Notes: generated from the letters alone by a model not told the origin. Shown: positions 1 to 56,635, numbered from the stretch's first letter. The stretch is DNA of 62,726 nucleotides from a virus (IMGVR_UViG_3300028045_002632:1-62726); one strand, 5' to 3'. Numbers and translations are program-made.

Positions 1-1
1 A

Positions 2-1684
2 AACTTACCTCCTGAAAAAATTAAAAAAGCTATTTCAAATAAATTTGGCATAGATGAATCAAAAAAGAACGTTTACAAAATTCGTGGAATTTTAGATCAA
101 ATAAAAAACCAAGATCAAAAAAGTCTTGAAAATGAATTAAACAATCAAAATATATCTCAAAGAAGATATCAAAAACGATTCAAACGCAATAATCAATATT
201 ACGACGATATTATAAATTGGTTTGAAGCATCTCCTTCGAGAACCGGCTCTGGTAAATCTAAAAAGTATTTAATTGCAATTTCTAAAAAACCAGAAGATAT
301 AGAAAACATGAGCACAGGTAGAGATTGGAAATCATGTATGGAAATAGGAAAAGATAACACTTCTAAAGTATATTGCGAAGTGAAAGATGGCGGATTTATA
401 GCATATTTAATTGAGCCAGATGACAAAGAAATAAAAAACCCAAAAGCCAGAGTGCTGGTAAGAAGGTTTGACAGTAAAAGAATTGGCGGCGGATCAAAGC
501 ATGGAATGTCGGTAGCAGTTGTAGAGTCAAAAATTTATGGATGGGAAGTTCCTGGATTCGCTGAAGAAGTAGAAAAATGGGTAGAGTCCAAACAAGGAGA
601 AATCAAAGCAGGGTTGTATCAGTTAAAAGGTGCCGAATACTCAGACACCTACGATCCAGATGGAGAATACATTTCTTCTGACAAAATCGAGGATTTGTGG
701 AAGTTGACAGATCCATGGAGGCCGGATAGTAAATATGCGTTGGAAAAAATAGAACAACTAGATAAAGAAAAGTCTCTTGATTCCGAGTCTATAAAAAGAC
801 TTCATGAATTTCTTAAAAACAGAAAAGGAGATTCAGTATGGGTTCCCAGTTACGAGAGTCATTTACTTAGACATCCAGAACTAATAGAAGTTGAAGATCT
901 AACAAAATCAATGGTAGCCAAATCAAAGAAAGCATTAGTCAGATCAATTGACAAACTTTCTCCTGAAGTGGCTGAACAATTGAAAAAAAATATCTATAAA
1001 GAAGTTTTAGACGGGCTGGAGTATCCTCCAAAAAAAGATGATAAACGAATGGGCGATAGTCCTTACACACTACTCGGTCATTATAACGACATAGCTGATC
1101 AGCTTTCTGCCTTCAGACCCATCCCTAATGAAATCGTTAAGAAGATTTACGAACTAGCAGAAAAGTTGAATGAGAGACCAATAAAGAGCCAAACAGAAAA
1201 AAGCAACAAGCGAAAAATGATTGGCGGACAGATGGGTCAAGTAATTGGTTCTGAAAATTTTGAAGGGAGAATTCTTCAGAGCTTTGCAAATGCTTTGGTT
1301 CAAGCAAACAATCCGGCAGCAAATGGATTCGTAGATAAATACTTGAAATTCCGTGGAGAAGAAGGGTTTGGCCTTGGAGGTCGTTCAATGGGGTATCAAA
1401 GCTTACACAACAATCTTTATAAATTGGGCGAAAAAGGAAAAACATATTTGCCCCAGTTGCAAAAAGAGTTAAAGCAAGTTGAAGATAAAATCAAAAAGAT
1501 AGAACTAGAAACTCCAGGATTAGAACAAGCATATGCTGCCGATGCTAATTCTCAAGATGTCAACAAACTCCTCAATCACAAACCTGCCGAGTACAAAAAC
1601 CTAAAAAAGTCTGAAGAAGAGTATCGTTATGCAATAGATTCTATTGAAAAGGGATCACTTTCCCAGAAGTACGATCCTTTTTAG
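2..1684 (+). CDS. Large phage protein of unknown function (5' end missing)
   Basis: The frame is open from base 2, so the N-terminus lies outside the window; the first internal ATG (308) falls inside the conserved part and is not a convincing start. The visible 560 residues are rich in Lys and Glu. A distinctive stretch around base 308 reads MSTGRDWKSCMEIG, followed by a beta-rich segment with GFIAYLIEP and ARVLVRRF. From memory, similar MSTGR..W.SCM segments occur in long proteins of T4-like and jumbo phages with no known role; this is recognition, not a search. The C-terminal third is helical with coiled-coil-like KKIELE and KNLKKSEEE runs. It ends one base before the convergent SWIM-domain gene. 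Confidence 0.75.
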   Translation, partial: NLPPEKIKKAISNKFGIDESKKNVYKIRGILDQIKNQDQKSLENELNNQNISQRRYQKRFKRNNQYYDDIINWFEASPSRTGSGKSKKYLIAISKKPEDIENMSTGRDWKSCMEIGKDNTSKVYCEVKDGGFIAYLIEPDDKEIKNPKARVLVRRFDSKRIGGGSKHGMSVAVVESKIYGWEVPGFAEEVEKWVESKQGEIKAGLYQLKGAEYSDTYDPDGEYISSDKIEDLWKLTDPWRPDSKYALEKIEQLDKEKSLDSESIKRLHEFLKNRKGDSVWVPSYESHLLRHPELIEVEDLTKSMVAKSKKALVRSIDKLSPEVAEQLKKNIYKEVLDGLEYPPKKDDKRMGDSPYTLLGHYNDIADQLSAFRPIPNEIVKKIYELAEKLNERPIKSQTEKSNKRKMIGGQMGQVIGSENFEGRILQSFANALVQANNPAANGFVDKYLKFRGEEGFGLGGRSMGYQSLHNNLYKLGEKGKTYLPQLQKELKQVEDKIKKIELETPGLEQAYAADANSQDVNKLLNHKPAEYKNLKKSEEEYRYAIDSIEKGSLSQKYDPF

Positions 1685-1685
1685 A

Positions 1686-2210
1686 TCAATCTCTAATTAT
1701 CCCAGAATTAGAAAGCACTTCTACCATCTTTATGAGATGCTTGCACATACCAGGCATCTTCTTTGGGTTACTAGATCCAGGATTGAATTCAGCCTCATAT
1801 TTTCTTGCTTTTCTTCCATATAGAGATTTATTTAAATGATCTGTGTAGTTAAATCTCCATTTGAAATCATTGCAATTACACCTTAGAACCACATCTTGGC
1901 TCATGCTAAGAGGATTAATGTTAAAATTTCCTGTTTCTGTTTTCAGTTTCAACGTTTTTGAAGAAGCAGAATCTTCATATTGTACATTCTTAAAGAGAAT
2001 GATTGGAGAGTATTCTCTTCCTTCATTTTGTGCGAGAGATCGCATAAATAAAGTTCTAACTCCTTTATAAGGACTTAAGTATAAATTAGAGATTTGAATT
2101 GGCTGAGTCGCATGTTGTCTTTTCGTTGTAGTTGGAAAAGCTTCAACAGTGCTCTGGTACAAATCAGAAACTGATGACTCTTCGATTAGCCAATTTTCAA
2201 AAGTATGCAT
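1686..2210 (-). CDS. SWIM-type zinc-finger protein with N-terminal capsid-targeting-like motif
   Basis: 174 residues. The start is the ATG at 2210, giving MHTFENWLIEES, which fits the F-x-x-W-L-x-E motif shared by many proteins here. The C-terminal half has CNCNDFKWRF then PGMCKHLIKMV, the CxC...CxH pattern of a SWIM zinc finger, which in other proteins binds DNA or protein. The middle (residues about 40-110) is beta-rich and unassigned. L-I-E at residues 8-10 would suit the [L/I]-x-E cleavage rule of the T4 prohead protease. I infer a DNA-binding head-internal protein; the zinc pattern is seen, packaging is inferred. It is divergent from the gene at 2266. Confidence 0.75.
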   Translation of the reverse strand: MHTFENWLIEESSVSDLYQSTVEAFPTTTKRQHATQPIQISNLYLSPYKGVRTLFMRSLAQNEGREYSPIILFKNVQYEDSASSKTLKLKTETGNFNINPLSMSQDVVLRCNCNDFKWRFNYTDHLNKSLYGRKARKYEAEFNPGSSNPKKMPGMCKHLIKMVEVLSNSGIIRD

Positions 2211-2255
2211 AAATGTTCTCTATTCTATGTTTCAAATATATAGATCTAAAACTAT

Positions 2256-2263
2256 TATAAATA
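2256..2263 (+). promoter_or_regulatory. TATAAATA octamer, T4-type late promoter candidate
   Basis: Exact match to the T4 late -10 box, lying only 2 bases before the ATG at 2266. At the usual spacing, transcription would begin at or just inside this codon, so either the mRNA is leaderless or the box serves a later start. Confidence 0.45.
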
Positions 2264-2265
2264 TT

Positions 2266-2742
2266 ATGACAGAAAACACAGAAAATGATAAAAACACCTA
2301 CAACTGCCTAAATTGTGGGATTCCTTTCGTAGTTCCAAGTGGCTGGGAACACGATTACGCAGGGTGTACTAATTGCGGAATGGATTCAAAAGTTAGTGAA
2401 TTAAGCTTTGCAAAAAAGAATAAAGAAGGAAAGTGGCTAGGAATAATTCCAAAAGACAGCATTCCAATGTATCCAGATGGAACGCCTATGAGAAGGTTCG
2501 AAGTTAAAGGACGCAAAAGGGAAGACGGAACAGTAGAAAAAGGTGTTTTTATAGACGGCGAAAAGCTAGACTGGACAGTGGATATTACTTCGCTGATGGA
2601 TGCTAAAAGTATGGGTCCATCCTTTTTCAAAGAAATACAAAAGGACATTGAAAAACATTATACAGAAAGTGTTGGAGAAGTTTTAGGAAGAAAAGTAACA
2701 GCATTAGAAATAAAACAAGCAATAAAAGTAGGATGGATTTAA
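2266..2742 (+). CDS. Zinc-ribbon protein of unknown function
   Basis: 158 residues. I chose the ATG at 2266 (MTENTEND) over the longer reading from 2149, because the upstream part runs antisense through the neighbouring gene's 5' end. Residues about 13-40 carry CLNCGIPF ... CTNCGM, two CxxC pairs typical of a zinc ribbon. The rest has no recognised domain: a basic GRKREDGTVEKGVFIDGEK hairpin-like stretch, then a helical C-terminus. It is first in a tight plus-strand run (2266-4904) that contains the lysine aminotransferase. A zinc-dependent nucleic-acid or protein adaptor is possible, but nothing more specific can be supported. Confidence 0.7.
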   Translation: MTENTENDKNTYNCLNCGIPFVVPSGWEHDYAGCTNCGMDSKVSELSFAKKNKEGKWLGIIPKDSIPMYPDGTPMRRFEVKGRKREDGTVEKGVFIDGEKLDWTVDITSLMDAKSMGPSFFKEIQKDIEKHYTESVGEVLGRKVTALEIKQAIKVGWI

Positions 2743-2743
2743 A

Positions 2744-3058
2744 ATGAACGAAGTATCAGGTTACGGATACGAATTTTTAACTGAACTGTTTGGCGGCCCG
2801 CTTGATGGCTACAGAGGAACCGTAATGTCAATCAATGACGAGGACCCTCCAGAAATATGGATTGAAAGAATTAGCAAAAAAAAGCCAAACAAGAATTTAG
2901 GAACTAGATTTTTAGAGCAATGCACAGGATGTTCTCCTGACGAAAAGGTAGCTGTTTATAAATTTTCTTCCAACTCATTGAAGAAGCAAATATGTTGCTA
3001 CAAATATATCGAAACAATGACTTTTAAGAAATACAAAAACAAATATTCAAAGGAATAA
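2744..3058 (+). CDS. Hypothetical protein with FGGPLDGY motif
   Basis: 104 residues, starting 1 base after the upstream stop. Residues about 15-23 read LFGGPLDGYRG; GGPLDG is a recurrent signature of small hypothetical proteins in phages and actinobacteria, with no known role. Four cysteines (CTGC and CC) in the second half could bind metal. It lies between a zinc-ribbon gene and the aminotransferase with essentially no spacers, so it is probably co-transcribed with both. Confidence 0.65.
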   Translation: MNEVSGYGYEFLTELFGGPLDGYRGTVMSINDEDPPEIWIERISKKKPNKNLGTRFLEQCTGCSPDEKVAVYKFSSNSLKKQICCYKYIETMTFKKYKNKYSKE

Positions 3059-3060
3059 CA

Positions 3061-4305
3061 ATGAAGATAGCAGACAGACTAAAGAAGCATATTCTTGTTG
3101 ACGAAAATGCAGTTGTAATTGATTTAAAAAAATCTCAAGGCAGTTGGATCGTAGACGAAGAAACTGGAAAGCAATACATGGATTGCTTTAGTCAATTTGC
3201 TTCTCAACCACTTGGTTGGAATCATCCAAAAGTCGTTGCCCAAAAGGACAGACTGCTTGATGCCGCAATTAGCAAAGTAGCAAATAGCGACATGTATACC
3301 AAAGAGTATGTTGAGTTTGTTGAAAAATTTGCAGAGTTCACACCTGATCATCCATATCATTTTTATGTAAGCGGAGGAGCATTGGGTGTAGAGAATGCAT
3401 TAAAAGCTGCCTTTGATTGGAAATACCAAAAGTATGGCAAGGAAGATATGGATGTAATCCATCTCGAAAACTGTTTCCATGGAAGAAGTGGATACACTAT
3501 GTCTTTGACAAACAATGGCGATCCTGATAATCCAAAAGTTGATGGCTATCCAAAATTTGAATGGACAAGAATTCTTAATCCTAAAATTAATTTCCCTATA
3601 TTAGATGATGCAAATTATTTGAGCGATCTAGAAAGAAGGGAAAAGACATCTTTAGATCAAGCTGAAGCTGCTTTGAAAAATAGAAACGTGGCGGCGATTA
3701 TAATCGAACCCATCCAAGGAGAAGGTGGAGACAACCACTTCCGTGACGAATATTTAGTGGGACTGAGACAACTGGCTGATCAATATGAAGCGATGTTGAT
3801 CTTTGATGAAGTTCAAACTGGGGTTGGGCTTACAGGAGAATTTTGGGCATATCAAAACTTCTCCGTAGTTCCAGACATGATATCTTTTGGGAAGAAGATG
3901 CAAACATGCGGGTTCGCAGCAAGTGACAGAATAACCACAGAAAAAAACAATGTGTTCACAGTTCCAAGTAGAATCAACTCTACGTGGGGAGGAAACATTG
4001 TTGACATGGTTCGCTCAACCATGTACTTGGAAATAATAGAAGAGGATGATTTAGTAAACAACGCAAAATCAGTTGGAAATCATCTTCTTTCAAGACTGGA
4101 AGCAATGGGGTTGGATAATGCAAGAGGGAAAGGACTTTGGATTGCATTTGACCATCCAAATCGTGATCAAGTGATTTCAGATTTATTTGACAAAGGTATG
4201 TTTGTGCTTTCTTGTGGATCAGATTCCATCAGGCTAAGGCCACACCTTGACTTCTCTGTTCAAGATGCAGACTTAGCCGCAGATTTGATATCGCAAGTCG
4301 TGTAA
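3061..4305 (+). CDS. lat: L-lysine 6-aminotransferase (PLP-dependent, class III)
   Basis: 414 residues, full length for the family. Class III aminotransferases of this group move the epsilon-amino group of lysine to 2-oxoglutarate, giving 2-aminoadipate semialdehyde and glutamate. Visible landmarks: CFSQFASQPLGWNHPK near the N-terminus; FYVSGGALGVENALK for phosphate binding; the aspartate in IFDEVQTGVGLTG; and SFGKKMQTCGF, whose lysine should form the Schiff base and whose context resembles known LAT enzymes. The gene begins 2 bases after the upstream stop, so it is in an operon. It is a metabolic gene unusual in a phage. Glutamate dehydrogenase (7114) and PII (9373) nearby suggest a linked nitrogen function. 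Related omega-aminotransferases with another substrate are the alternative. Confidence 0.85.
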   Translation: MKIADRLKKHILVDENAVVIDLKKSQGSWIVDEETGKQYMDCFSQFASQPLGWNHPKVVAQKDRLLDAAISKVANSDMYTKEYVEFVEKFAEFTPDHPYHFYVSGGALGVENALKAAFDWKYQKYGKEDMDVIHLENCFHGRSGYTMSLTNNGDPDNPKVDGYPKFEWTRILNPKINFPILDDANYLSDLERREKTSLDQAEAALKNRNVAAIIIEPIQGEGGDNHFRDEYLVGLRQLADQYEAMLIFDEVQTGVGLTGEFWAYQNFSVVPDMISFGKKMQTCGFAASDRITTEKNNVFTVPSRINSTWGGNIVDMVRSTMYLEIIEEDDLVNNAKSVGNHLLSRLEAMGLDNARGKGLWIAFDHPNRDQVISDLFDKGMFVLSCGSDSIRLRPHLDFSVQDADLAADLISQVV

Positions 4306-4322
4306 TAAATATTATAAAGCAT

Positions 4323-4904
4323 ATGATTAAAATAATTCAATCAAGTCCTCCACATACGGGTTCTACCTTATTGTTGAATTTAATACACGGGTTTATATCT
4401 CCACAAGAAAGAATACACTATGCTAATTACAACATCTTTGATGAATTAATACATAAATTCTCAATAATTAAAACACATGATTTAAATATTATTGATTTAG
4501 AAAATAAATATCCCCAATATAAATTATTCTTTGTTATGAGTGAACGTAATGATAGAAAAGTGCAAAAAGAAATAAATAATGAATATAAAAAAAAATCAAA
4601 TGTATTAGTAATTAATTATGATAAATTACTTGCAACTGATAACAGTATTAAGGATGTAATCGATTATATATTTAATGAATTTAATAACTTTATACCAAAT
4701 GAATTAAAACCTAATAAAGACGATAATTTAATTAAAGATGATATGGGAAATAGGATGAAAATTGTAAATGAAACTGTAGAAAAAATGAAAGATGAGCCGT
4801 TTGAGGAATGTGATAAATTTACAGGTATTCACGGACATCATAGAGGAAGAACAGCCGATGTACATTCCGCACAAAAACAGGAAAAATCTTGTTGGAAGTT
4901 TTAG
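4323..4904 (+). CDS. Sulfotransferase-like P-loop protein
   Basis: 193 residues. The N-terminus IKIIQSSPPHTGSTLLLNLI resembles the PAPS 5'-phosphosulfate loop of sulfotransferases. A later KLFFVMSERNDRK strand and FEECDKFTGIHG end also suit the fold, but the protein is shorter than classical enzymes (about 250-300 residues). It is one of four such proteins in the window (also 8390, 15057, 26661). Base composition is visibly more AT-rich than the neighbours, with many AAT and ATA codons, suggesting a separate origin. It could be a kinase-like P-loop protein instead. Confidence 0.6.
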   Translation: MIKIIQSSPPHTGSTLLLNLIHGFISPQERIHYANYNIFDELIHKFSIIKTHDLNIIDLENKYPQYKLFFVMSERNDRKVQKEINNEYKKKSNVLVINYDKLLATDNSIKDVIDYIFNEFNNFIPNELKPNKDDNLIKDDMGNRMKIVNETVEKMKDEPFEECDKFTGIHGHHRGRTADVHSAQKQEKSCWKF

Positions 4905-4968
4905 GAATCGTGCTTCATCGTGTTACGAGTGTTTTCGTTGATCATTTCTGATAATTCATAAAAACTTT

Positions 4969-5685
4969 TCATTTTTTCACCTTTAATGCATTTTTAACAA
5001 CATCTATCGCTTTAAGAAGCTCTGGTGATGCTCCCATTCTGTTCGTCATGTGAGGAAATATAGCCTTTTCTAGCTGATCTGCTGTAATTTGACTTTGACC
5101 TTGTTGTTGTTGTTGTTGTTGTTGTTGTGGTTGTTGTTGGCCTTGAGCTTGTGGTTGACCTTGACCTTGTGGTTGACCTTGACCTTGGTCTTGGTCTTGT
5201 TGTTGACCTTGACCTTTATTCCCAAGCCACCCTTTAATCCCTCTCCATGCATTACCAAGCATGCCGTTTTTTTGCGCCCAGCCAGTCCCATCGTCTCTAG
5301 TTGCCCCAATTGATGCAGCACCTTGCTTGAGCTTGCCTCCAGCCCAGTCGGCTCTATTTTGCGCCTTCATCATTCCTGTTTTTTGCTGTGCAGCTTGAGT
5401 TTTGGAATCTCTTTTCAGACCTGCCTGCATAGCCCTTTGGTCCTTTTGCTGCTGCTTTGCATCAGCGTCGGAAGTTGGATCTTTTTTACCGCCCCACCAA
5501 GCCTCGTTTATCAATTCTAATTCCGAGATTGCTTGCTCTTGCAGGTCTACATCCAAAGTCATAAAGTGTTGCAAGTCTTCAATGACGATCTCTACAGGCA
5601 TACCAGATTCGCAAACTACAACCGCTAATTCATTTATGCTTTTTCTAAGGTCTCTTTCGAAACAATAATTTTCAAATTTTTTCAT
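4969..5685 (-). CDS. Gln-rich protein with capsid-targeting-like N-terminus
   Basis: 238 residues, starting at the ATG at 5685 (MKKFENYCFERD, a relaxed version of the shared motif). A helical N-terminal domain (to about residue 65) is followed by a low-complexity Lys/Gln/Gly region, with repeated GQGQPQGQ and a run of nine glutamines at about 192-200, then a helical end AIDVVKNALKVKK. A GATAAATA box sits one base before the ATG. The layout (short tag, helical head, disordered linker) suits an internal head or scaffold-associated protein; this is inference. The trypsin-like gene's stop lies directly upstream. Confidence 0.7.
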   Translation of the reverse strand: MKKFENYCFERDLRKSINELAVVVCESGMPVEIVIEDLQHFMTLDVDLQEQAISELELINEAWWGGKKDPTSDADAKQQQKDQRAMQAGLKRDSKTQAAQQKTGMMKAQNRADWAGGKLKQGAASIGATRDDGTGWAQKNGMLGNAWRGIKGWLGNKGQGQQQDQDQGQGQPQGQGQPQAQGQQQPQQQQQQQQQGQSQITADQLEKAIFPHMTNRMGASPELLKAIDVVKNALKVKK

Positions 5686-6501
5686 TTATTTATCCCAAAA
5701 ATTAATTGGTGTTATGTGCTTGTTAAATTGCTTATGCTCCATCTCTACATAAAAGAATGGTACAACTGGCATTTTTTCTTCTTTATTAAACGCAAAATCT
5801 ATTACACTATTTAGTTCTTTGTTCCATTTTTTGAACCTAGATAATGGAACTGCAAACGCCATATGGTAAACCTGTTGCGGTATCATTCCTGAATTGACCC
5901 TGATTGCTTGAATCATGCCAATTAGCTTGTTTTCATGAAATAAACCACCACCGCTATCGCCAGGCACAGTACCAGCAGAATATCTAATTGTTCCATTTAC
6001 ATTTCCTTCATTTAGAGAAGATAATGAATTTATTATTCCAGTTTCAACTCGTGGCTCTTCTCCTAAGCCACTGCCAACTCTGGTGATTTTGTTTCCAATA
6101 TAGTAATTTTTTTCAAATGACAAATCAGCTACCGGCATTTCTTTTTCAGACGTAAACAAGACAACTGCTGTATCTTTGGATTTATCCATTCTGTAAAAAA
6201 TAGCTGGGTAATCTTTAAAGCCCTTGACAGTACTCCAGTTTTCATATTCATAGACTCTGACAACATGTGGCTGTGGCGAGTGGACGTGTGCAACTGAAAG
6301 TGCGACATTTCTCCACTCTTCTCCTACTTTTTCACTTCTTACAATTATCGCAGATCCGTTTCCGCCACCTTGCGATGGCTTCAGTGTGACAGCCGGATAC
6401 AAGCATTTATTGTGAAGCAATTTGTCTGGTTCTTCACTAGATAATGGTGACGACAAAATCAATACTAAAAAAGTCGTTATAGTTGTTTTTAATATATTCA
6501 T
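5686..6501 (-). CDS. Secreted trypsin-like serine protease
   Basis: 271 residues from the ATG at 6501 (MNILKTTITTF); the longer TTG reading lacks a sensible signal. The first ~20 residues form a hydrophobic signal peptide ending near LSSPLSS. Catalytic candidates in order: His in LSVAHVHSP, Asp in SKDTAVVLF, Ser in PGDSGGGLF, the full S1/HtrA-type triad. No PDZ domain follows. A secreted protease in a lytic phage could act on envelope proteins or mature other secreted proteins. Its start has a CCTAAATA box 5 bases upstream and no Shine-Dalgarno. The divergent neighbour at 6531 is another secreted protein. Confidence 0.85.
   Translation of the reverse strand: MNILKTTITTFLVLILSSPLSSEEPDKLLHNKCLYPAVTLKPSQGGGNGSAIIVRSEKVGEEWRNVALSVAHVHSPQPHVVRVYEYENWSTVKGFKDYPAIFYRMDKSKDTAVVLFTSEKEMPVADLSFEKNYYIGNKITRVGSGLGEEPRVETGIINSLSSLNEGNVNGTIRYSAGTVPGDSGGGLFHENKLIGMIQAIRVNSGMIPQQVYHMAFAVPLSRFKKWNKELNSVIDFAFNKEEKMPVVPFFYVEMEHKQFNKHITPINFWDK
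5687..5694 (-). promoter_or_regulatory. GATAAATA late-promoter-like box for the Gln-rich gene
   Basis: On the minus strand the sequence reads GGGATAAATAAATG, so the box ends one base before the start codon. GGGA eight bases upstream of the ATG could act as a weak Shine-Dalgarno if transcription begins further upstream. Confidence 0.4.
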
Positions 6502-6506
6502 ACATT

Positions 6507-6514
6507 TATTTAGG
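6507..6514 (-). promoter_or_regulatory. CCTAAATA box 5 bases before the protease start
   Basis: Minus-strand reading CCTAAATA-AATGT-ATG. It shares the TAAATA core and the 5-base spacing seen at 9988, 38311 and 51144. Confidence 0.4.
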
Positions 6515-6530
6515 ATGAAAGGAATCAAAA

Positions 6531-7076
6531 ATGAATAGACTTATATCTTTAACATTAATAATGCTATTAATGGGTTCGATAGCATTTGCCTATCAAAACA
6601 ATAAAAAAAACAACCTGCTTGACAAATGGCAAAGCTGGGGAGGTTCGCAAGATGAGCCTCAAATAGAGCCAAATCCTCAAATAGAGCCAAAGCCTCAAAT
6701 AGAGCCAAAGCCTCAAATAGAGCCAAAGCCTCAAATAGAGCCACAAGAGCCGATGGATAAAAATCCAGAATCTTACGAAGAGGCTCTAAAAATGGCAAAA
6801 GAACAAAACAAAAAAATATTTTTATTCTTTTCAACAGAAACCTGTCATTGGTGTGTAAAAATGAAAGAAAATACTTTGTCAGATGATGATGTGAAAAGTA
6901 TTTTATCTGAGTACGTCGTTTACTATGCGGATGCATCTAAAGAAATAGAGCTTCGTAGAAAGTATAATGTTTCGGGAATTCCAAACTATTTCATAGTAGA
7001 TAAAAATGAGAAAATAGTCAAACACGGAATAGGGTATAAAGGAGAAGAATCTTTTAAAGGATGGATAGAAGATTAA
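6531..7076 (+). CDS. Secreted thioredoxin-fold protein (CHWC active site)
   Basis: 181 residues. The Shine-Dalgarno AAAGGA precedes the ATG at 6531. A clear signal peptide (MNRLISLTLIMLLMGSIAFA) is followed by a linker of five PQIEPK/N hexapeptides, then a thioredoxin-like domain (about 75-180). That domain has FFSTETCHWCVKMKE, a CxxC redox motif in the arrangement of DUF255/thioredoxin-7 type proteins, and the cis-Pro region VSGIPNYFIVD. It probably acts in the periplasm on disulfides, perhaps helping the adjacent secreted protease or reducing host envelope proteins. The proline-rich repeat probably acts as a spacer. Confidence 0.85.
   Translation: MNRLISLTLIMLLMGSIAFAYQNNKKNNLLDKWQSWGGSQDEPQIEPNPQIEPKPQIEPKPQIEPKPQIEPQEPMDKNPESYEEALKMAKEQNKKIFLFFSTETCHWCVKMKENTLSDDDVKSILSEYVVYYADASKEIELRRKYNVSGIPNYFIVDKNEKIVKHGIGYKGEESFKGWIED
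6657..6746 (+). repeat. 18-bp tandem repeat, five copies, encoding PQIEPK
   Basis: CCTCAAATAGAGCCAAAG units in near-perfect tandem inside the thioredoxin-like gene. The last copy diverges at its end. Copy number probably varies between relatives by slippage. Confidence 0.9.
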
Positions 7077-7113
7077 TAAGAATTAAACACTAAAATAAAG
7101 CGAGGTGGTGTAT

Positions 7114-8376
7114 ATGTCTTTGTTAGAAGGAGCAAAGTCTTATTTAAGTAAAGCTGTTGAGTTCGCAAACATAGACCCTGAAAGTAGGCTGCGTTTACAA
7201 TATCCTCAAAGAACTCTTCAAGTTTCAATCCCAATGAGGCACGATGACGGAACCTTGAAGATGTATAAAGCATTTAGGTGTCAATATGATTCAACGATGG
7301 GTCCAACTAAGGGCGGCATAAGATTTCACCCTCATGTGGACAGAGATCATGTCGAAGCTTTAAGTTTCTGGATGACGTTTAAATGCGCCGCTCTAAAAGT
7401 TCCTTTTGGAGGAGCTAAGGGCGGCGTTTCCATTGATCCAAACTCGCTTTCACATCGTGAGTTGGAAAGAATTAGCAAGGCATACATCAGTGCGTTTAGA
7501 GATTTTATTGGTCCTGATGAAGATATTCCTGCACCAGATTTAGGAACCAACGAACGTGTTATGGGATGGATGTACTCTGAGTACAGAAGAATTAAAGGAG
7601 GGAATCCAAGAGCAATAATCACTGGCAAGCCTGTTGCTTTAGGAGGAATAGAGGGCAGAGATTCTGCTACTGGCTACGGAGGATACTACGTACTAGAGCA
7701 CCTGATGGATAACTATTTAGATAAAATAAATTTACCCGTAAAACAAGACTTAAAAATAGCAATTCAAGGATTTGGAAACGTAGGATATTGGTTTGCGGAA
7801 AAATGCTCCAGAAATGGAATAAAAGTAATTGCTGCATCTAATCAGTTTGGAGGGGTACACGATCCAAATGGACTTGACATTTCTGCCTGCAAGCAAGCTT
7901 TAGAAAAATCAGAAGAAAAAGAATGGGGTCAAGGAACTAAAATCTCTAATGAAGAATTGATTTCTTTAGAATGTGACATTTTGGTTCCTGCCGCAATTGA
8001 GGATGTGATAACAAAAGAAAATGCCGATTCGGTGAAGGCTCGAATGGTTTTTGAAATGGCCAACGGACCAACTACAGTTGAGGCAAATCAGATATTAGAA
8101 AACAAAGGGATAATTATAGTTCCAGATATACTTGCAAACGCTGGCGGAGTTTGTGTTTCTTTCTTTGAGTGGCTTCAAAATAAACATGGAGAATATTGGG
8201 AAAGATCTAAAGTAGATGAAGAATTAAAGAAAAGAATGTGCTATGGAACTGAAAGAATGATGGCTCAATTTTTCAAATATGACACATCTATGAAAGTTGC
8301 GACATATACGCTTGCGTTGAAGCGAATTGCTGATGCGAACGAATCTTTAGGAAATAAAAATTATTTCCTAAAGTAG
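7114..8376 (+). CDS. gdhA: Glutamate dehydrogenase (Glu/Leu/Phe/Val family)
   Basis: 420 residues, full length for the hexameric enzyme, which interconverts glutamate with 2-oxoglutarate and ammonium using NAD(P). I chose the ATG at 7114 because GAGGTGG stands 5 bases before it; a GTG at 7105 is possible. N-terminal dimerisation/catalytic domain: GPTKGGIRFHP, then PFGGAKGG with the catalytic lysine, then PAPDLGTNE. The NAD(P)-binding Rossmann segment has IQGFGNVGYWFAEK; PAAIEDVI and LANAGGVCVS follow as expected. All key residues seem present, so it should be active. It is rare in phages. It shares glutamate/2-oxoglutarate with the nearby aminotransferase and with PII. Confidence 0.92.
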   Translation: MSLLEGAKSYLSKAVEFANIDPESRLRLQYPQRTLQVSIPMRHDDGTLKMYKAFRCQYDSTMGPTKGGIRFHPHVDRDHVEALSFWMTFKCAALKVPFGGAKGGVSIDPNSLSHRELERISKAYISAFRDFIGPDEDIPAPDLGTNERVMGWMYSEYRRIKGGNPRAIITGKPVALGGIEGRDSATGYGGYYVLEHLMDNYLDKINLPVKQDLKIAIQGFGNVGYWFAEKCSRNGIKVIAASNQFGGVHDPNGLDISACKQALEKSEEKEWGQGTKISNEELISLECDILVPAAIEDVITKENADSVKARMVFEMANGPTTVEANQILENKGIIIVPDILANAGGVCVSFFEWLQNKHGEYWERSKVDEELKKRMCYGTERMMAQFFKYDTSMKVATYTLALKRIADANESLGNKNYFLK

Positions 8377-8389
8377 ACTTTAATATACC

Positions 8390-8968
8390 ATGTCAGATAA
8401 AAAGATCATCATAACTGGAACGGGTAGAAGTGGCACAACATTTGTCATGTTAATTTTTTCTTATCTAAAACTGGATACGGGATACGAGGACGAAAAGCAA
8501 ATAAAAAGAGCGATATTTCCCGATTGCAACGCTGGGCTTGAAACTAAATCTGATGGGATATTCACAAGCAAAAAAACTCCTAAAATAATCAAAAATCCTA
8601 ATATAATCACAAACATAGAAGACATTGTAAAATCGGGCGTCGAAATAGAACACATATTTATACCCATCAGAGATTACCACCAAAGTGCAAAATCTAGAGA
8701 GTCGAATAAACAAAATGGCGGCTTTTGGCAAGCTAAGAACGCAAATGAACAGGTCGATTTTTATCGAAAAATAATGTCGGAGTATCTGTTTTACATGGCG
8801 AAGTATGATCTAAATACAACTTTCATTGATTTTGAAAGAATGATAACAAATAAAAAGTATACATTTGAGAAGCTTTCTCCTGCTCTCGGAGGGGTAAGCT
8901 TCGAAGACTTTTCAGAAGCGTTTGATAAGGCAGACTATCAACAAAAAAACAAACCCATAAAATCATAA
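8390..8968 (+). CDS. Sulfotransferase-family P-loop protein
   Basis: 192 residues. The N-terminus IIITGTGRSGTTFVMLIF is the classical G-x-GRSGTT sulfate-donor loop. IEHIFIPIRDYHQSAKSR matches the second PAPS 3'-phosphate motif (R-x...S). The C-terminus is shortened relative to complete enzymes. It begins 13 bases after the dehydrogenase stop, so it is probably co-transcribed. Substrate unknown; with the other glycan genes, sulfation of a sugar or lipid is the reasonable guess. Confidence 0.75.
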   Translation: MSDKKIIITGTGRSGTTFVMLIFSYLKLDTGYEDEKQIKRAIFPDCNAGLETKSDGIFTSKKTPKIIKNPNIITNIEDIVKSGVEIEHIFIPIRDYHQSAKSRESNKQNGGFWQAKNANEQVDFYRKIMSEYLFYMAKYDLNTTFIDFERMITNKKYTFEKLSPALGGVSFEDFSEAFDKADYQQKNKPIKS

Positions 8969-9012
8969 ACCCAACATATATAAACTACCTGCTATTATAC
9001 AAAGGAAGAAAA

Positions 9013-9330
9013 ATGGGTAAAAAACTAAAAGGCAAACAACACAAACTAGATGTTGATAAAGATGGAGACATCGACGCAAAAGATTTTAAAAAGCTAAGAG
9101 ATGAAGAAGAAGATTGCAAGTGTAAAGATTGCGACTGTGATGGTAAGGGTTGCGATGATTGCAAAGATTGCGATTGCAAAAAGAACGAAAGTCTAAATCT
9201 TCCTTCATTCATGCAATGGCTCGAATCAAAGTCTCACGAAAAGTGCTCCTGCAAGTGCAACGAGTGTAAAGATGGAGACTGCAAAGGCTGCTCTTGTGAA
9301 GATTGTTCTTGCGATGGCTGCGATTGCTAA
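9013..9330 (+). CDS. EF-hand plus Cys-rich protein with an internal targeting-like motif
   Basis: 105 residues, with the Shine-Dalgarno AAAGGAAG before the ATG. Residues about 13-26 (DVDKDGDIDAKDF) form a perfect EF-hand/dockerin-type calcium loop. After it come two Cys-rich blocks of CKCKDCDCDG-type repeats (over 20 cysteines), like a metallothionein. Between them sits LPSFMQWLESKSHEK, the same F-x-x-W-L-E pattern that other proteins here carry at their N-terminus. Probably a metal-binding protein, but its role is unknown. An internal copy of the motif is odd and may be a cleavage or docking site. Confidence 0.75.
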   Translation: MGKKLKGKQHKLDVDKDGDIDAKDFKKLRDEEEDCKCKDCDCDGKGCDDCKDCDCKKNESLNLPSFMQWLESKSHEKCSCKCNECKDGDCKGCSCEDCSCDGCDC

Positions 9331-9372
9331 ACAAATATTCTAAAAATAATCAAACGGATAAGGAGATCCATC

Positions 9373-9714
9373 ATGAAAAAAGTAGAAGCTATCGTTAGAT
9401 CCTCTAAACTGCACGAACTGCAAGAGGCGTTTCAAAACTTTGAAATGAACGGGATGATGGTCTTGGCAGACGTTAAAAGCTTTGGCAAAGAAAAAGGCCA
9501 TTCTGAATTTTACAGGGGAACCGAGTATCAGGTTAACTTTGTTCCTAAAACAAAAATAGAAATTATTTGCAATGATGAAGATGTTGAAAAAATTAAATCT
9601 TCAATAGTTCAGATATCCCATACTGGGAAGGTTGGAGACGGAAAAATAATAGTCACCAATGTAGAAAACGTAACTAAAATCAGAACAGGGGAACAAAACG
9701 AAGAAGCAATTTAG
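9373..9714 (+). CDS. glnB: PII nitrogen-regulatory signal protein (GlnB/GlnK family)
   Basis: 113 residues, the usual PII length, with AAGGAGATCC upstream. It starts MKKVEAIVRSSKL like bacterial PII. The T-loop (about 37-55) reads FGKEKGHSEFYRGTEYQVNF, with Tyr52 in the place of the uridylylated Tyr51. The B-loop TGKVGDGKI (84-92) binds ATP/ADP, and RTGE near 104 is the C-loop. PII trimers sense 2-oxoglutarate and ATP/ADP and control glutamine synthetase adenylylation, NtrB and ammonium channels. All binding segments look intact, so this may replace or titrate host PII. No amtB follows; the next gene is convergent and overlaps by 4 bases. Confidence 0.93.
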   Translation: MKKVEAIVRSSKLHELQEAFQNFEMNGMMVLADVKSFGKEKGHSEFYRGTEYQVNFVPKTKIEIICNDEDVEKIKSSIVQISHTGKVGDGKIIVTNVENVTKIRTGEQNEEAI

Positions 9715-9971
9715 TGTTTAATTACTTTAACTTCTAGATCGCCGGTTCCTTTTATGACCCTATGCCACTCGTTGGCCTTGATTTTAATCTCACCGCTAAT
9801 TTTTATAGGAAGCTCATTGTCTCTCTGAAACATCCAATCGGTTTCAGAGAGAGAGATGACCGTTCTATCTTCTTCATCTTGATGCCACTTTAGCTCGCTT
9901 GAATCTAAATCTTGAGAAAATCTTCTAATACAAGCACTCCCAGATTTCTTTTCTTCAAATGGTAAATTCAT
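9711..9971 (-). CDS. Small cupin-like protein
   Basis: 86 residues from the ATG at 9971, with AAGGTTC upstream. The second half (DNELPIKISGEIKIKANEWH, then RVIKGTGDLEVKV) has the spacing of a small RmlC-like cupin barrel: a DNELP turn, a G-E-I-x-I strand and an H-R-V-I-K-G-T-G-D-L end. Only one or two of the usual metal ligands are visible, so it may be structural. The 4-base overlap with the PII gene means the two converge. Confidence 0.6.
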   Translation of the reverse strand: MNLPFEEKKSGSACIRRFSQDLDSSELKWHQDEEDRTVISLSETDWMFQRDNELPIKISGEIKIKANEWHRVIKGTGDLEVKVIKH

Positions 9972-9987
9972 TTTTTGAACCTTATTT

Positions 9988-9995
9988 GATAAATA
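9988..9995 (+). promoter_or_regulatory. GATAAATA late-promoter-like box, 5 bases before a start codon
   Basis: GATAAATA-ATTGC-ATG leads straight into the tagged gene at 10001. No Shine-Dalgarno lies between, which fits a leaderless transcript if the T4 late spacing holds. Confidence 0.55.
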
Positions 9996-10000
9996 ATTGC

Positions 10001-10633
10001 ATGAACTTTAAAAAATATATTGAAGAATTTCCAATTTTCGAGTCTGCTCCTATGCAGATGCTCGAAGACGTAAAAATTAGCGAAAACTTAAAATATCACA
10101 TAGAAAACGAAATGTCTTTATGTGAAAACGCATTTAGAATATATAGCAATTCTTACTTCAACTTAATCAATGAAGTACGTGAATTATACAACAAAGACAT
10201 GATTGCTGTTAATGATGAAGATGCCGAGCTTCTTGAGACTGATATTGGCACCGTGGTCGAACATAATGGAACTAAAATACATTTAGATATTCCTTTCATT
10301 GAGAGAGAAGATAGAATTGATGAAAGAACGGCATCGCCTAAGAAAAAAAAGAAAAAAGGTCCGTTAAACAAACCAATGCGAACACCTGGCGGTCCTAAAA
10401 AGTTTAAAGTTTATGTGAAGGTGCCAGGTACAGACAGAATTAAAACAGTAAGATTTGGAGACTCTAAGTCATCTGGACTTTCGATTAAAAATTCAGACCC
10501 AGCAAGAGCAAAAAGCTTTAGAGCTAGACACAAGTGTTCAGAAAAGAAAGACAAAACAACTGCTGGATACTGGAGTTGCAACATTGGAAGATATGCAAAA
10601 TCTGTTGGCCTCAAATCAAACAAGCCTTGGTGA
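10001..10633 (+). CDS. Tagged phage protein with basic conserved C-terminus
   Basis: 210 residues from the ATG at 10001 (MNFKKYIEEFPIFES), a clear example of the targeting-like motif with I-E-E as a possible protease site; the longer reading from 9959 has no ribosome site. The acidic helical N-terminal half is followed by a lysine run KKKKKKG and a conserved block KFKVYVKVPGTDRIKTVRFG ... ARHKCSEKKDKTTAGYWSC. I recognise that block as common to many T4-like cyanophage and marine phage proteins of unknown role. Two cysteines and a basic surface suggest DNA or capsid contact. Likely a head-internal protein. Confidence 0.75.
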   Translation: MNFKKYIEEFPIFESAPMQMLEDVKISENLKYHIENEMSLCENAFRIYSNSYFNLINEVRELYNKDMIAVNDEDAELLETDIGTVVEHNGTKIHLDIPFIEREDRIDERTASPKKKKKKGPLNKPMRTPGGPKKFKVYVKVPGTDRIKTVRFGDSKSSGLSIKNSDPARAKSFRARHKCSEKKDKTTAGYWSCNIGRYAKSVGLKSNKPW

Positions 10634-10648
10634 TTTTTACGTTCCATT

Positions 10649-10972
10649 TTAGCCATATGGAACATTATTCTTTTTACCATCGTTTGTTACTTGGGGCACA
10701 ATAATAGAAATTGTCTTATTTCCTTTTGGATTAATTATCGAAATACATGCCTCCTTCGTATATGCACTAAAACTAACAATTTCCCAATTGTTGATATTTA
10801 AACCGTGAAAATATCTTCCAATTCCCGTATCCGCTGGTAGCATTGCCAAAAGCGTAGCTTTTTGCAATGAAGCGTCTTGAGCGCAAGCTCTTCTTCTGAA
10901 TTGAACGACATCTGGAGGCGTTGTGTTGGAATATGTTTCTCTATTTGGAAGATTTTCTTTCTTAAATGACAT
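10649..10972 (-). CDS. Hypothetical protein
   Basis: 107 residues, starting MSFKKENLPNRETY at 10972 with an AAAGAGATT ribosome site. Residues 25-45 carry FRRRACAQDASLQKA; the C-terminal half is beta-rich (NTISIIVPQ-like strands). No recognised domain. It converges with the tagged gene ending at 10633; the 15-base gap plus flanks can form a weak GTTCCAT/ATGGAAC hairpin. Confidence 0.6.
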   Translation of the reverse strand: MSFKKENLPNRETYSNTTPPDVVQFRRRACAQDASLQKATLLAMLPADTGIGRYFHGLNINNWEIVSFSAYTKEACISIINPKGNKTISIIVPQVTNDGKKNNVPYG

Positions 10973-11021
10973 TTTAATCTCTCTTTAACTAATATAAGTA
11001 TGTATTAACTGGGGATTTATA

Positions 11022-11231
11022 ATGCAAAGTGTAATCCAAGAAGATTGCGTCTGGTTCTTAGACTCAAACTCAAACGTTCCAGAAGACGAACAAAAAATGC
11101 AAGCCATGTGTTTAGAATGTCACAAAAAACATAGTTTTGGTTGGTATTGGAATGGAGCATCCACTGGATATGGAGATTACGACCTAAAATGTTGCTTTTG
11201 TGATGCCGTCCTGCACCAGAGAGAGAAATAA
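11022..11231 (+). CDS. Small zinc-ribbon protein
   Basis: 69 residues. CLECHKKHSFGW and CCFCDAV provide two CxxC pairs about 30 residues apart, a zinc ribbon. GGGGAT precedes the ATG. It is two bases upstream of the Dam-type methylase and almost certainly co-transcribed. Function unknown. Confidence 0.65.
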   Translation: MQSVIQEDCVWFLDSNSNVPEDEQKMQAMCLECHKKHSFGWYWNGASTGYGDYDLKCCFCDAVLHQREK

Positions 11232-11233
11232 AA

Positions 11234-12070
11234 ATGACAACGAAAACAAAAAAGCTTAGACCACCTGTGAAAATTCATGGCGGAAAATACTATTTGTCCA
11301 ATTGGATAATTGAACACTTCCCAAAAAAATATGAAGAATTAGAATATGTTGAACCCTTTTGCGGCGGCGGGAGTGTTTTCTTAAATAAAATACCTTCCGA
11401 AAAAATTGAAATATTAAACGATGTCGATTTAGGAATGATCCAGATCTGGCGAGCGTTGAGGGATGAGCCAGGCAACTTTATTGGAAGAATTAAAAGAACT
11501 AATTATTGCGAGAGGGTTTTCACAAGAGAAATAAAAAAATCTGCACCTTTCAAAGATTACATGGAACACGCCGTATATGATTATGTTTTAAGACGAATGA
11601 GTAGAGGTGGACTGAAGCAGGCGTTTGCGTGGAGCAACAGAGAACGAGGAGGACAACCTGGTGATGTTAACGCTTGGGAAACCATGAAAGAATATCTTCC
11701 TTTAATATCTGAAAGAGTGAACAAGTGTCACATTTTTAATAGACCCGCTTTAGATGTTATAAACGCCTTCAACAATCATGACACTTTTTGTTATTGTGAT
11801 CCGCCTTATTTGCAAGAGACCAGAGAATCAAAAAATGCTTATGAATTTGAAATGAGCACAGATGATCATGTCGCTCTTGCCGAGAAGCTTCTTCAGTTTA
11901 AAGGTTTTGTGGCAGTGTCTGGATATCCTTCTTCCTTATACAATAGATTATTCAAAAATTGGCGTTGTTCAAGGAAAAGAATTGCCAATCATGCATCGCA
12001 AACTGCTGCTAAGAAAAAGAAGACCGAGTGCTTGTGGATGAACTACTCAGCGAATGGAAAACGCTTGTAA
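11234..12070 (+). CDS. dam: DNA adenine methyltransferase (Dam/D12 class)
   Basis: 278 residues. Order of motifs: PVKIHGGKYYLSNWI (SAM-binding motif I of D12-class enzymes), YVEPFCGGGSVFLNK, and the catalytic DPPY in FCYCDPPYLQE near residue 190. The protein should add a methyl group to N6 of adenine in a short target such as GATC, though specificity cannot be read from sequence. Phages use this to evade restriction or time replication. No cognate endonuclease is adjacent, so it is an orphan. Confidence 0.9.
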   Translation: MTTKTKKLRPPVKIHGGKYYLSNWIIEHFPKKYEELEYVEPFCGGGSVFLNKIPSEKIEILNDVDLGMIQIWRALRDEPGNFIGRIKRTNYCERVFTREIKKSAPFKDYMEHAVYDYVLRRMSRGGLKQAFAWSNRERGGQPGDVNAWETMKEYLPLISERVNKCHIFNRPALDVINAFNNHDTFCYCDPPYLQETRESKNAYEFEMSTDDHVALAEKLLQFKGFVAVSGYPSSLYNRLFKNWRCSRKRIANHASQTAAKKKKTECLWMNYSANGKRL

Positions 12071-12086
12071 GTATCTAGATACAAGT

Positions 12087-12251
12087 ATGAAAACATTTAA
12101 AAAATGGCTAGAAGATGCAGGCGAGGTGCATTTACGAATAAATGATGATTCGTATGCCGAAAAAGGCGCAAAAAGCCAAATGCAGCCATCTAAAAAACCA
12201 GGCAAGTCTAAGTTTAATCCAAAGAAATTATTTGGGAAAATGTCTAAATAG
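12087..12251 (+). CDS. Small basic protein with targeting-like motif
   Basis: 54 residues. I start at the ATG at 12087 (MKTFKKWLEDAGE), which is strikingly similar to the T4 internal-protein start MKTYQEFIAEA. After the tag comes a lysine- and proline-rich tail (KKPGKSKFNPKKLFGK). This suits a small basic head-internal protein that binds packaged DNA, as T4 IPII/IPIII do. The tail has no globular domain. Confidence 0.7.
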   Translation: MKTFKKWLEDAGEVHLRINDDSYAEKGAKSQMQPSKKPGKSKFNPKKLFGKMSK

Positions 12252-12268
12252 TAGAAAGGATTAAATCA

Positions 12269-12655
12269 ATGAATGTTACTTTTGCTTCAATTTTAGATCA
12301 TATGGAAACATACTATGAAGAAGATGAGTCTAATGAGCCTCTTCTGGATAGTGGTGTAGAGTCTGAATCCATGGACATTGTCAGATCTGGGATGAATCTC
12401 AGTGATGGATTTTGGGATAATTTCATAAGTCTTTGCGGTGACTCGCAAGCAATCTCAGAGTTATTTGAAGTTCCTCGTTCAAAAGTTGCCACTTGGGGGA
12501 AAAAGATTAACTCTCTAATTGAGAAAATTGAAAAAGAAGACTCTAACGATTCGGAAAGAGCAGACACCATTACAACAAGTGACGAGGAGCTAGCTGATCC
12601 CGAAGGAACCAATGCTCAAGGAGAACAACCCGCTGATTTAAGGCCAACCCCATAG
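12269..12655 (+). CDS. Acidic protein, possible weak targeting motif
   Basis: 128 residues, starting MNVTFASILDHMETYYEED after GAAAGG. The first residues are a poor match to the F-x-x-W-L-E pattern. The middle (SQAISELFEVPRSKVATWGKKI) looks like a helix-turn-helix-like helical segment. The last 40 residues are acidic and disordered. Part of a plus-strand run of tagged genes. Confidence 0.6.
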   Translation: MNVTFASILDHMETYYEEDESNEPLLDSGVESESMDIVRSGMNLSDGFWDNFISLCGDSQAISELFEVPRSKVATWGKKINSLIEKIEKEDSNDSERADTITTSDEELADPEGTNAQGEQPADLRPTP

Positions 12656-12663
12656 GAGAACAC

Positions 12664-13035
12664 ATGAAAAGTTACAATGAATGGAAAAATGAAAAATTAG
12701 ATGAAATTGCACCAGCGACAGACGTTGATCAAATGGCCGGGCAGCCAATGCAGACAATGGGGCAACAATCTTCAATTCCTCAAAATTTCAACATGTCGAA
12801 GGCTGTGCAGGACTCCAAACAGGACATGCGAGCAGCAGGAATGATTGGCGCAAAGGCTCTTCAGCAAGCACAGCAAATGTTAATTTGGATGTCTCAAAAT
12901 AATCCTCAGAAGCTGAATCAAGTGCTAACATTGATTGCAAAACATGCCAAAGATTCTGGTATGGGTGGAACAGCTTCACAGCTTAAAACAGGATTTAGAA
13001 AAGTTGGCGCAAGTGATGCAGATGTAGGATTGTAA
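12664..13035 (+). CDS. Tagged Gln/Met-rich helical protein
   Basis: 123 residues after AGGAGAACAC. The start MKSYNEWKNEKLDEI fits the tag with W at position 7. The rest is helical and rich in Gln and Met, with no cysteine, consistent with an internal head or scaffold-core component. No enzymatic motif. Confidence 0.65.
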   Translation: MKSYNEWKNEKLDEIAPATDVDQMAGQPMQTMGQQSSIPQNFNMSKAVQDSKQDMRAAGMIGAKALQQAQQMLIWMSQNNPQKLNQVLTLIAKHAKDSGMGGTASQLKTGFRKVGASDADVGL

Positions 13036-13068
13036 AATACAAGGATGTATATTTAATGTAGAAACAAT

Positions 13069-15056: not shown

Positions 15057-15710
15057 ATGTTGAAGGAAAAAAAATTAAAATCCGATGAACATAAAGATGT
15101 TGCACCTAAGACTTTTAAAAACTTTTTAATTTCTGGATCAGGTCGGTCTGGAACCAAATTCTTAGCCAATTTAATGAATAAGTCTGAGGTGTGGAGCGTC
15201 AAGCATGAACCTCCCCCAGCAGGAATCGAAAATTATACATCATCAGAATCAATTTGGCAAACATATAAAAGATTTGAATTAGATCATTACGGTGAAGTAA
15301 ATTCTTATTTAAGAAAAATTTTAATTCATTTTCCAGTAAATAAAAAAGGATTATTGATTAGAAACCCTTATGATATTTATCTTTCTATTGCGAACAGAAG
15401 GCCGAAACTGCTACGCAAATACTTGAATGAGTTTATTGAATCTTTGGATATTATAAATTATGCAATATCCAAAGACAAAGAAATAAAAAAAATTGTATTT
15501 GAAAGACTGACTTCAGATGTAGACTATGCTCAAGACGTTTTAAATTTTTTCGGAATTGATGATGTTGTTGTTACCGAAGAAGACTTAGCGACCAAAGTAA
15601 ACAAAACAACGAATGCAAAATACAAAACCATAAAAGACTTACCTCCAAATATACGCAAAGAAGTGATGATTCATTCTGAAATATTTTTGGAAGCAAGAGC
15701 CAATGATTAG
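15057..15710 (+). CDS. Sulfotransferase-family P-loop protein
   Basis: 217 residues, 2 bases after the glycosyltransferase stop. Residues 20-38 read NFLISGSGRSGTKFLANLMN, the PAPS 5'-loop; KGLLIRNPYDIYLSIANRRP is the 3'-phosphate motif. The length and both motifs suit a complete small sulfotransferase that transfers sulfate to a hydroxyl. Context implies a carbohydrate substrate made by the neighbouring transferase. Confidence 0.78.
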   Translation: MLKEKKLKSDEHKDVAPKTFKNFLISGSGRSGTKFLANLMNKSEVWSVKHEPPPAGIENYTSSESIWQTYKRFELDHYGEVNSYLRKILIHFPVNKKGLLIRNPYDIYLSIANRRPKLLRKYLNEFIESLDIINYAISKDKEIKKIVFERLTSDVDYAQDVLNFFGIDDVVVTEEDLATKVNKTTNAKYKTIKDLPPNIRKEVMIHSEIFLEARAND

Positions 15711-26660: not shown

Positions 26661-27398
26661 ATGACCATAAAAGAAGAAAGTCCTGAGTTAATAAAGATAT
26701 ATGGCCTTCAAAGATCAGGCACAAACTACATAACCCACCTGTTGAACACAAACTTTCAAAACATAAAAGTTTTAGTAAATGCTGGTGGGTGGAAACATGG
26801 AACGTACAATGTTCCATTTTGCCTAGGTCGGGAAGTTCATTGCGTATGCATGGTAAAAAATCCATATGCGTGGCTGAGAAGCGTTTACGAATATTGGGGG
26901 CCAAATAGAAAAAAAAATATAGGCCCAAATCTTAAAGACGTGTCTTTTGAAGACTTCATAAAAAGTCGTGCAATATTTGAAAAACAGAAAGGAGTCCCAT
27001 TCCTTTTCAGAGCAGAAAATCCAATACAATATTGGAATAACATGAACTATCATTATCACTCAATAGTGTCGCAAGATAAGAAAATTTGTCTTTTAACTTA
27101 TGAAGCTTTATTGTCTCAATTTGAAAATGTAATGCTAGGTCTATCAAATGAATTTGAAATTATGCCTTCGAGCAATAATCTAACATTTTCAAATTGTTCA
27201 AATGAATTCGTGCCATCAGGAGAAGAAGTTCAAGTCTCTAACAACCCATGGGACAAATTGAAATACTATACAGATAAAGAGTATTTAAAATACTACACCC
27301 CAGAAATGTTGGGCTACGTAAACTCTCATTTAGATATTGAATTAATGAGCAAGTTTGAATATGAAATAGAATTAAAACCCAAGGAAATGCAATGTTAA
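26661..27398 (+). CDS. Sulfotransferase-family P-loop protein
   Basis: 245 residues. Residues 10-30 (ELIKIYGLQRSGTNYITHLL) form the PAPS 5'-loop, and CVCMVKNPYAWLRSVYEYWG the 3'-phosphate segment. This is the longest and most complete of the four sulfotransferase-like proteins. It is placed between tail genes, so the acceptor might be a virion glycan. Overlaps the following GT9-like gene by 7 bases. Confidence 0.78.
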   Translation: MTIKEESPELIKIYGLQRSGTNYITHLLNTNFQNIKVLVNAGGWKHGTYNVPFCLGREVHCVCMVKNPYAWLRSVYEYWGPNRKKNIGPNLKDVSFEDFIKSRAIFEKQKGVPFLFRAENPIQYWNNMNYHYHSIVSQDKKICLLTYEALLSQFENVMLGLSNEFEIMPSSNNLTFSNCSNEFVPSGEEVQVSNNPWDKLKYYTDKEYLKYYTPEMLGYVNSHLDIELMSKFEYEIELKPKEMQC

Positions 27399-52682: not shown

Positions 52683-52689
52683 ATTTATC
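52682..52689 (-). promoter_or_regulatory. GATAAATA box touching a tagged start codon
   Basis: Minus-strand reading TTGATAAATATG. The last A of the box is the A of ATG. Transcription at normal spacing would start inside the gene, so the box may only be a weak signal or TTG/ATG choice may differ. Confidence 0.3.

Positions 52690-53632: not shown

Positions 53633-56631
<2,999 letters not shown>

Positions 56632-56635
<4 letters not shown>

Follow-up and report, generated by a model that had tools for sequence, protein, structure and literature searches.

Why should one phage genome hold genes for a lysine 6-aminotransferase-like enzyme, a glutamate dehydrogenase (GDH) and a PII nitrogen signal protein, and do the three act together? 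The question is raised by an IMG/VR virus record (IMGVR_UViG_3300028045_002632; 62,726 bases, G+C 37.6 %), referred to here as the window, in which an earlier note had described three full-length genes of these families and read them as a nitrogen cassette able to mobilise nitrogen from lysine into glutamate and to reset the host nitrogen signal. Profile matches confirm all three genes, with the start of the dehydrogenase refined to ATG 7114. We suggest, giving this reading about an even chance of being right, that the aminotransferase and GDH belong together as an auxiliary metabolic pair, conserved within a lineage of huge T4-type phages, by which lysine nitrogen would pass to glutamate and ammonium, and that PII is a separate accessory gene.

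Identity of the two enzymes

The gene at 3061–4305 (+ strand) encodes a class III aminotransferase of 414 amino acids, a probable L-lysine 6-aminotransferase (LAT), which matches PF00202 with 283 bits and TIGR03251 (LAT_fam) with 489.5 bits, against 214 bits for the next-best family. It aligns over its full length with the M. tuberculosis LAT (Rv3290c, PDB 2CIN; E=2e-103), and its residues F139, R142, E221, Q252, K278, N306, T308 and R391 are identical to all eight active-site residues named for that enzyme (in the same order F167, R170, E243, Q274, K300, N328, T330 and R422; PMC9780415), the pyridoxal phosphate lysine and the Glu243 switch included. It differs from TIGR03251 and Rv3290c in scoring under the trusted cut-off of the family model and in its placement within a phage clade apart from the cellular LATs. 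LAT-family enzyme appears to be a fair name for the product, with lysine as its predicted substrate.

The second gene (7114–8376, + strand; open from GTG 7105) encodes a predicted glutamate dehydrogenase of the ELFV family, 420 amino acids long from ATG 7114, and the open reading frame (ORF) 7105–8376 carries PF00208 (222 bits) and PF02812 (181 bits) at full length and above their gathering scores. Since a ribosome-binding-like GCGAGGTGG is found at 7100–7108 and the relatives begin MSMLEEAK, ATG 7114 is most likely the start. Residues K69, K93, K105, D145 and S352 (423-amino-acid numbering) are invariant in 17 viral GDHs, and we take them, by analogy with the C. symbiosum enzyme, to be catalytic and substrate residues; the proposal that both enzymes retain their catalytic lysines (K278 in LAT) is thereby borne out. 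The equivalog cut-offs of the NCBIfam GDH models are not reached (GdhA_Arch 423 bits against 750, the others also falling below). Both domains and the catalytic residues are shared with hexameric-type bacterial and archaeal GDHs (e.g. PDB 8YSW and 1EUZ), but the window enzyme is at most 46 % identical to the sampled cellular ones, against 58–81 % to viral ones, and belongs to a long-stemmed viral clade.

Conservation of the LAT–GDH pair

The GDH query retrieved 24 further viral loci within that range of identity, the nearest being contigs L006 (81 %) and L007 (71 %), and an alignment search with LAT found 53 viral loci. LAT lies upstream of GDH in 17 of the 25 viral GDH records (window included), 1.4–3.3 kb away where measured; this count takes in 16 of the 24 non-window records, which have an upstream class III aminotransferase (L006, cut off by its contig end, retains just the final codons), and the remaining records are two that end before LAT would appear and six in which GDH stands without LAT. 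The order c2 (LAGLIDADG endonuclease-like), c11, c3, c7, LAT, an internal-protein-like gene, c4, GDH is conserved, continues with c6, c9, a D12-class methyltransferase, c8 and a glycosyltransferase, and lies near a T4-type major capsid gene.

Window bases 1–4,305 match the end of another virus contig, L030 (44.6 kb), at every position (100 % identity). About 8.5 kb upstream of LAT this contig encodes a T4-type major capsid protein (PF07068), and the baseplate- and virion-like proteins encoded in the window fit this capsid gene. The uncultured phage record LR756511.1 (595 kb), presumed from its size to be a huge phage, likewise has the order c2–c11–c7–LAT and a T4-type capsid protein, but differs from the window in carrying LAT without GDH and without PII. 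Neither lysine nor aminotransferase is mentioned in the main text of the huge-phage paper (Al-Shayeb et al., 2020; PMC7162821), and the open-licence papers searched yielded no account of a LAT from phages or of its pairing with GDH, which is not proof of absence.

No PII was found in any of the other 24 viral GDH records, in L030 or in 39 further LAT-bearing phage records (many of these are fragments, in which the order of genes about GDH is nevertheless covered), four unrelated contigs with glnK–amtB, retrieved via the PII query itself, being the exception. In L006 and L007, c6 lies directly 3' of GDH, where the window has about 2.3 kb extra including PII. Considering that PII is absent from the relatives and that GDH and c6 adjoin there, we take LAT–GDH as the unit that has been conserved and PII as an addition peculiar to the window. 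Of the three genes that relatives might have been expected to keep together, then, LAT and GDH recur and PII does not.

Origin and selection

By a quick tree method, in which 40 of the 80 nearest cellular LATs (the 80 being best matches) were included, a single clade (SH-aLRT 100) takes in 39 viral LATs, with another six from viruses placed apart from it; 19 viral GDHs form one clade on a long stem (SH-aLRT 100). Cellular LATs of up to about 52 % identity fall outside the viral clade, among them many of the closest, which come from the FCB group (Fidelibacterota/Marinimicrobia, Ignavibacteria and Bacteroidota), and a search of 50 LAT-bearing genomes and of 297 from the phylum to which a Bacteroidota genome belongs gave no cellular GDH above 46 % identity, those up to that value lying outside the viral GDH clade. 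A recent host origin is thus unsupported for either gene. The LAT of contig L096 has a very long branch, and in L100 several adjoining genes are broken into pieces, which points to frameshifts or misassembly there.

The ratio of non-synonymous to synonymous substitution (dN/dS) between viral gene pairs is 0.05–0.13 for LAT and 0.02–0.08 for GDH (window versus L006 being excluded for GDH, where synonymous sites are saturated), indicative of strong purifying selection. From the phage-specific clades and this selection we infer that phages have long maintained both as functional genes. Moreover, GDH occurs in the fetched flank of none of 80 cellular LAT loci, so that the pairing looks like a phage feature; an aldehyde dehydrogenase lies near LAT in 27 of the 80. 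Together with the proximity in 17 of 25 records, the clades and the selection lend support to the lysine-to-glutamate idea of the earlier note.

Proposed function

We propose that LAT would move the epsilon-amino group of L-lysine onto 2-oxoglutarate, yielding glutamate and aminoadipate semialdehyde, the latter closing to piperideine-6-carboxylate (P6C), and that GDH would interconvert glutamate with 2-oxoglutarate, ammonium and NAD(P)H, with regeneration of 2-oxoglutarate. The net effect would be to turn lysine (e.g. from degraded host protein) into glutamate or ammonium nitrogen and reducing power. Passing of lysine nitrogen to glutamate and ammonium during infection is the most likely role, a scheme that presumes particular substrates in vivo, a direction of flux, a cofactor and a timing for LAT and GDH. 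One may conjecture that the nearby peptidase and thioredoxin-like genes fit such recycling of host protein.

Several observations weigh against this proposal. The LAT score lies below the TIGR03251 trusted cut-off of 520.8 bits, though it exceeds that of the next family by 275 bits, and the substrate is consequently not certain. No P6C or aminoadipate dehydrogenase was identified in the window, where annotation covered not every gene. GDH is missing from as many as 39 other LAT-bearing phage records (contigs of 254, 341 and 595 kb among them), LAT being spread wider than GDH among viruses, and, with the six GDH records that have no LAT, this implies that neither gene needs the other. Finally, opposite-strand genes (4969–5685 and 5686–6528) intervene between LAT and GDH, which are therefore not one operon; the single-operon model was rejected on this ground, and the genes do fall within 7 kb, as had been claimed, without forming one unit.

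The score under the trusted cut-off would also suit an enzyme acting on ornithine or another diamine, in which case the module would serve arginine/ornithine nitrogen instead of lysine. In a second group of viral contigs (L061, L063, L065, L071, L073, L074, L076–L080 and L101–L103) LAT adjoins arginine dihydrolase in a row with a glyoxalase-like gene and an aldehyde dehydrogenase to which no single substrate could be assigned, joined in some contigs by a nucleotide-sugar dehydrogenase, a saccharopine dehydrogenase-like or an ornithine cyclodeaminase-like gene. This row, which also counts in favour of the main proposal, is possibly a phage-encoded arginine/lysine catabolic operon, and it suggests that catabolism of basic amino acids is a theme extending more widely among large phages. 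The identity of the window enzyme to M. tuberculosis LAT at every listed active-site position, and the 155 bits that it scores with ornithine aminotransferase models against 489 with the LAT model, nevertheless make the ornithine explanation an unlikely one.

LAT might instead serve chiefly to make a product, aminoadipate semialdehyde, P6C or a derivative used by the phage (e.g. in modifying a molecule), with GDH just recycling glutamate. That so many phage records keep LAT without GDH suggests that LAT is valuable alone, but no dedicated downstream enzyme is conserved beside it in the window lineage, and we regard this explanation as rather unlikely.

The PII gene and its altered residue

The third gene (9373–9714, + strand) encodes a GlnB/GlnK-like PII signal protein of 113 amino acids, whose relatives stand at about 50 % identity or less. 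It matches PF00543 with 78.5 bits (cut-off 25) and the GlnB/GlnK NCBIfam equivalog PRK10858 with 120.7 bits, under the cut-off of 202. The T-loop Tyr51 (the uridylylation tyrosine) is kept, as are Lys58, Lys90 and Arg103, but Glu occupies the Gln39 position (E40, a one-residue insertion preceding it) and Lys replaces Arg101; retention of the tyrosine, as earlier reported, thus stands, and an intact 2-oxoglutarate site is unsupported. 2-Oxoglutarate is held, with ATP, by a Mg2+ whose sole ligand from the protein is Gln39 (PMC3198391; PMC3480911), and Lys at 101 is also found in Archaeoglobus GlnK3 (PMC3198391).

All 23 other viral PIIs, some of whose contigs are copies of one virus, have Gln39 (by an alignment query permitting Gln or Glu). 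A DNA pattern for the Gln form matched 41 of 99 genomes (phylum of a Desulfobulbaceae genome); one for the Glu form matched 4 of 297, about equal to a reversed control pattern, and none of these four matches has Ser/Thr at position 43. Since Glu at 39 could still bind Mg2+, loss of 2-oxoglutarate sensing is a hypothesis; in view of the replacement, normal sensing by the window PII cannot be assumed.

Viral PII and GlnK–AmtB are already known (PMC8115048; PMC6359870), and the 23 viral PII loci found here qualify the assertion that PII genes are rare in phages. The window protein shares with the known viral auxiliary genes the PII fold family and Tyr51, and differs from them in its Glu for Gln39, its linkage to LAT–GDH and its want of an amtB neighbour: no AmtB-like gene was found in its neighbourhood. 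Such a gene lies in the fetched stretch of 20 of the 23 other loci; among viral PII loci L003, L004 and L247–L269, those with amtB adjoining include contigs of 141 and 289 kb.

We suggest that PII, as a separate accessory gene either gained by the window phage or lost by its relatives, would probably act on host nitrogen signalling with an altered dependence on 2-oxoglutarate; any link to LAT–GDH metabolism is conjecture. It might be that PII reports a fixed nitrogen state to host targets whatever the 2-oxoglutarate level, while LAT and GDH shift that level, which we consider quite unlikely. Alternatively, PII, GDH and LAT might cooperate as the regulatory cassette first envisaged, in which PII would respond to 2-oxoglutarate in the normal way and reset nitrogen control in the host. 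The three genes are all intact on one strand within 7 kb, and PII keeps Tyr51 and most nucleotide-site residues; on the other hand, PII is absent from every other GDH/LAT phage record of this kind, its stretch is missing in L006 and L007, close relatives keep LAT–GDH without it, and Glu stands at the Gln39 position. The three-gene cassette was rejected by the record-level PII searches, and we hold it to be very unlikely.

That the genes are chance acquisitions carried as passengers, or come from contaminating cells, and have no role in infection would accord with the metagenomic source of the contigs and with PII being private to the window contig among its relatives, but is already contradicted for LAT and GDH by a conserved gene order shared among many viral contigs that carry T4-type capsid genes, by phage-only clades and by dN/dS of 0.02–0.13, still stands for PII alone, and is on the whole highly improbable.

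Neighbouring genes and phage type

Upstream of LAT lie c3 (1686–2210, −), c7 (2149–2742, +) and a third ORF (2744–3058, +), syntenic with LAT in relatives and in LR756511.1; the ORF at 4323–4904, downstream of it, has no Pfam match. The gene at 4969–5685 (−) encodes a Gln-rich protein, putatively internal-head-protein-like from its N-terminus (MKKFENYCFE), and occupies the position of the LAT–GDH spacer genes c10/c76 of relatives. Next come spacer gene c4 (5686–6528, −), a trypsin-like serine peptidase with a probable signal peptide (PF13365, 46.8 bits) present in 16 loci, and c17 (6531–7076, +), a thioredoxin-like protein (PF13899, 46.6 bits) found directly 5' of GDH in L006 and L007.

The window-specific stretch from GDH to c6 (8377–10648) contains, besides PII, a sulfotransferase-like ORF (8390–8968) with weak model matches below cut-off, a Cys/Asp/Lys-rich ORF of 105 amino acids just 5' of PII (9013–9330) with a weak EF-hand match below cut-off, and ORFs 9711–9971 (−) and 9959–10633. 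The conserved downstream block (10649–15054), recognized by synteny, comprises c6 (10649–10972, −), c9 (11022–11231, +) and c8 (12269–12655, +), together with two Pfam-named genes, the D12-class DNA methyltransferase c5 (11234–12070, +) and the glycosyltransferase c12 (13069–15054, +). The window proteins encoded at 4323–4904, 8390–8968, 15057–15710 and 26661–27398 have a P-loop start (GSGRSGT or SSPPHTGST).

A short N-terminal motif, M..F.(N/K/E)(W/F/Y)(L/I).E, begins the products of 11 ORFs (1686–2210, 4969–5685, 9959–10633, 12054–12251, 12664–13035, 34848–35147, 51157–51774, 51748–52173, 52173–52691, 53633–56635 and 61010–61642). We take it to resemble the leader that targets T4 internal head proteins to the capsid, and the head of the window phage may contain many packaged proteins. 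The T4-type late promoter core TATAAATA, with at most one mismatch, occurs 146 times in the whole window against 110 (sd 10) in shuffles; scans for sigma-70 promoters and terminators gave counts near chance. No tRNA genes were found in the window, nor RNA families near the LAT, GDH and PII genes.

Implications

If LAT and GDH work as proposed, some of the largest phages would possess a branch of amino-acid catabolism of their own, whose genes have a long evolution in phages behind them, in contrast with recent copying from a host. The Glu-bearing PII is a natural mutant with which the weight of 2-oxoglutarate sensing in nitrogen signalling could be gauged. The LAT–GDH pair would join GlnK, AmtB and AmoC among the nitrogen genes of viruses and, if true, provide a testable link between virus infection and the release of nitrogen from lysine.

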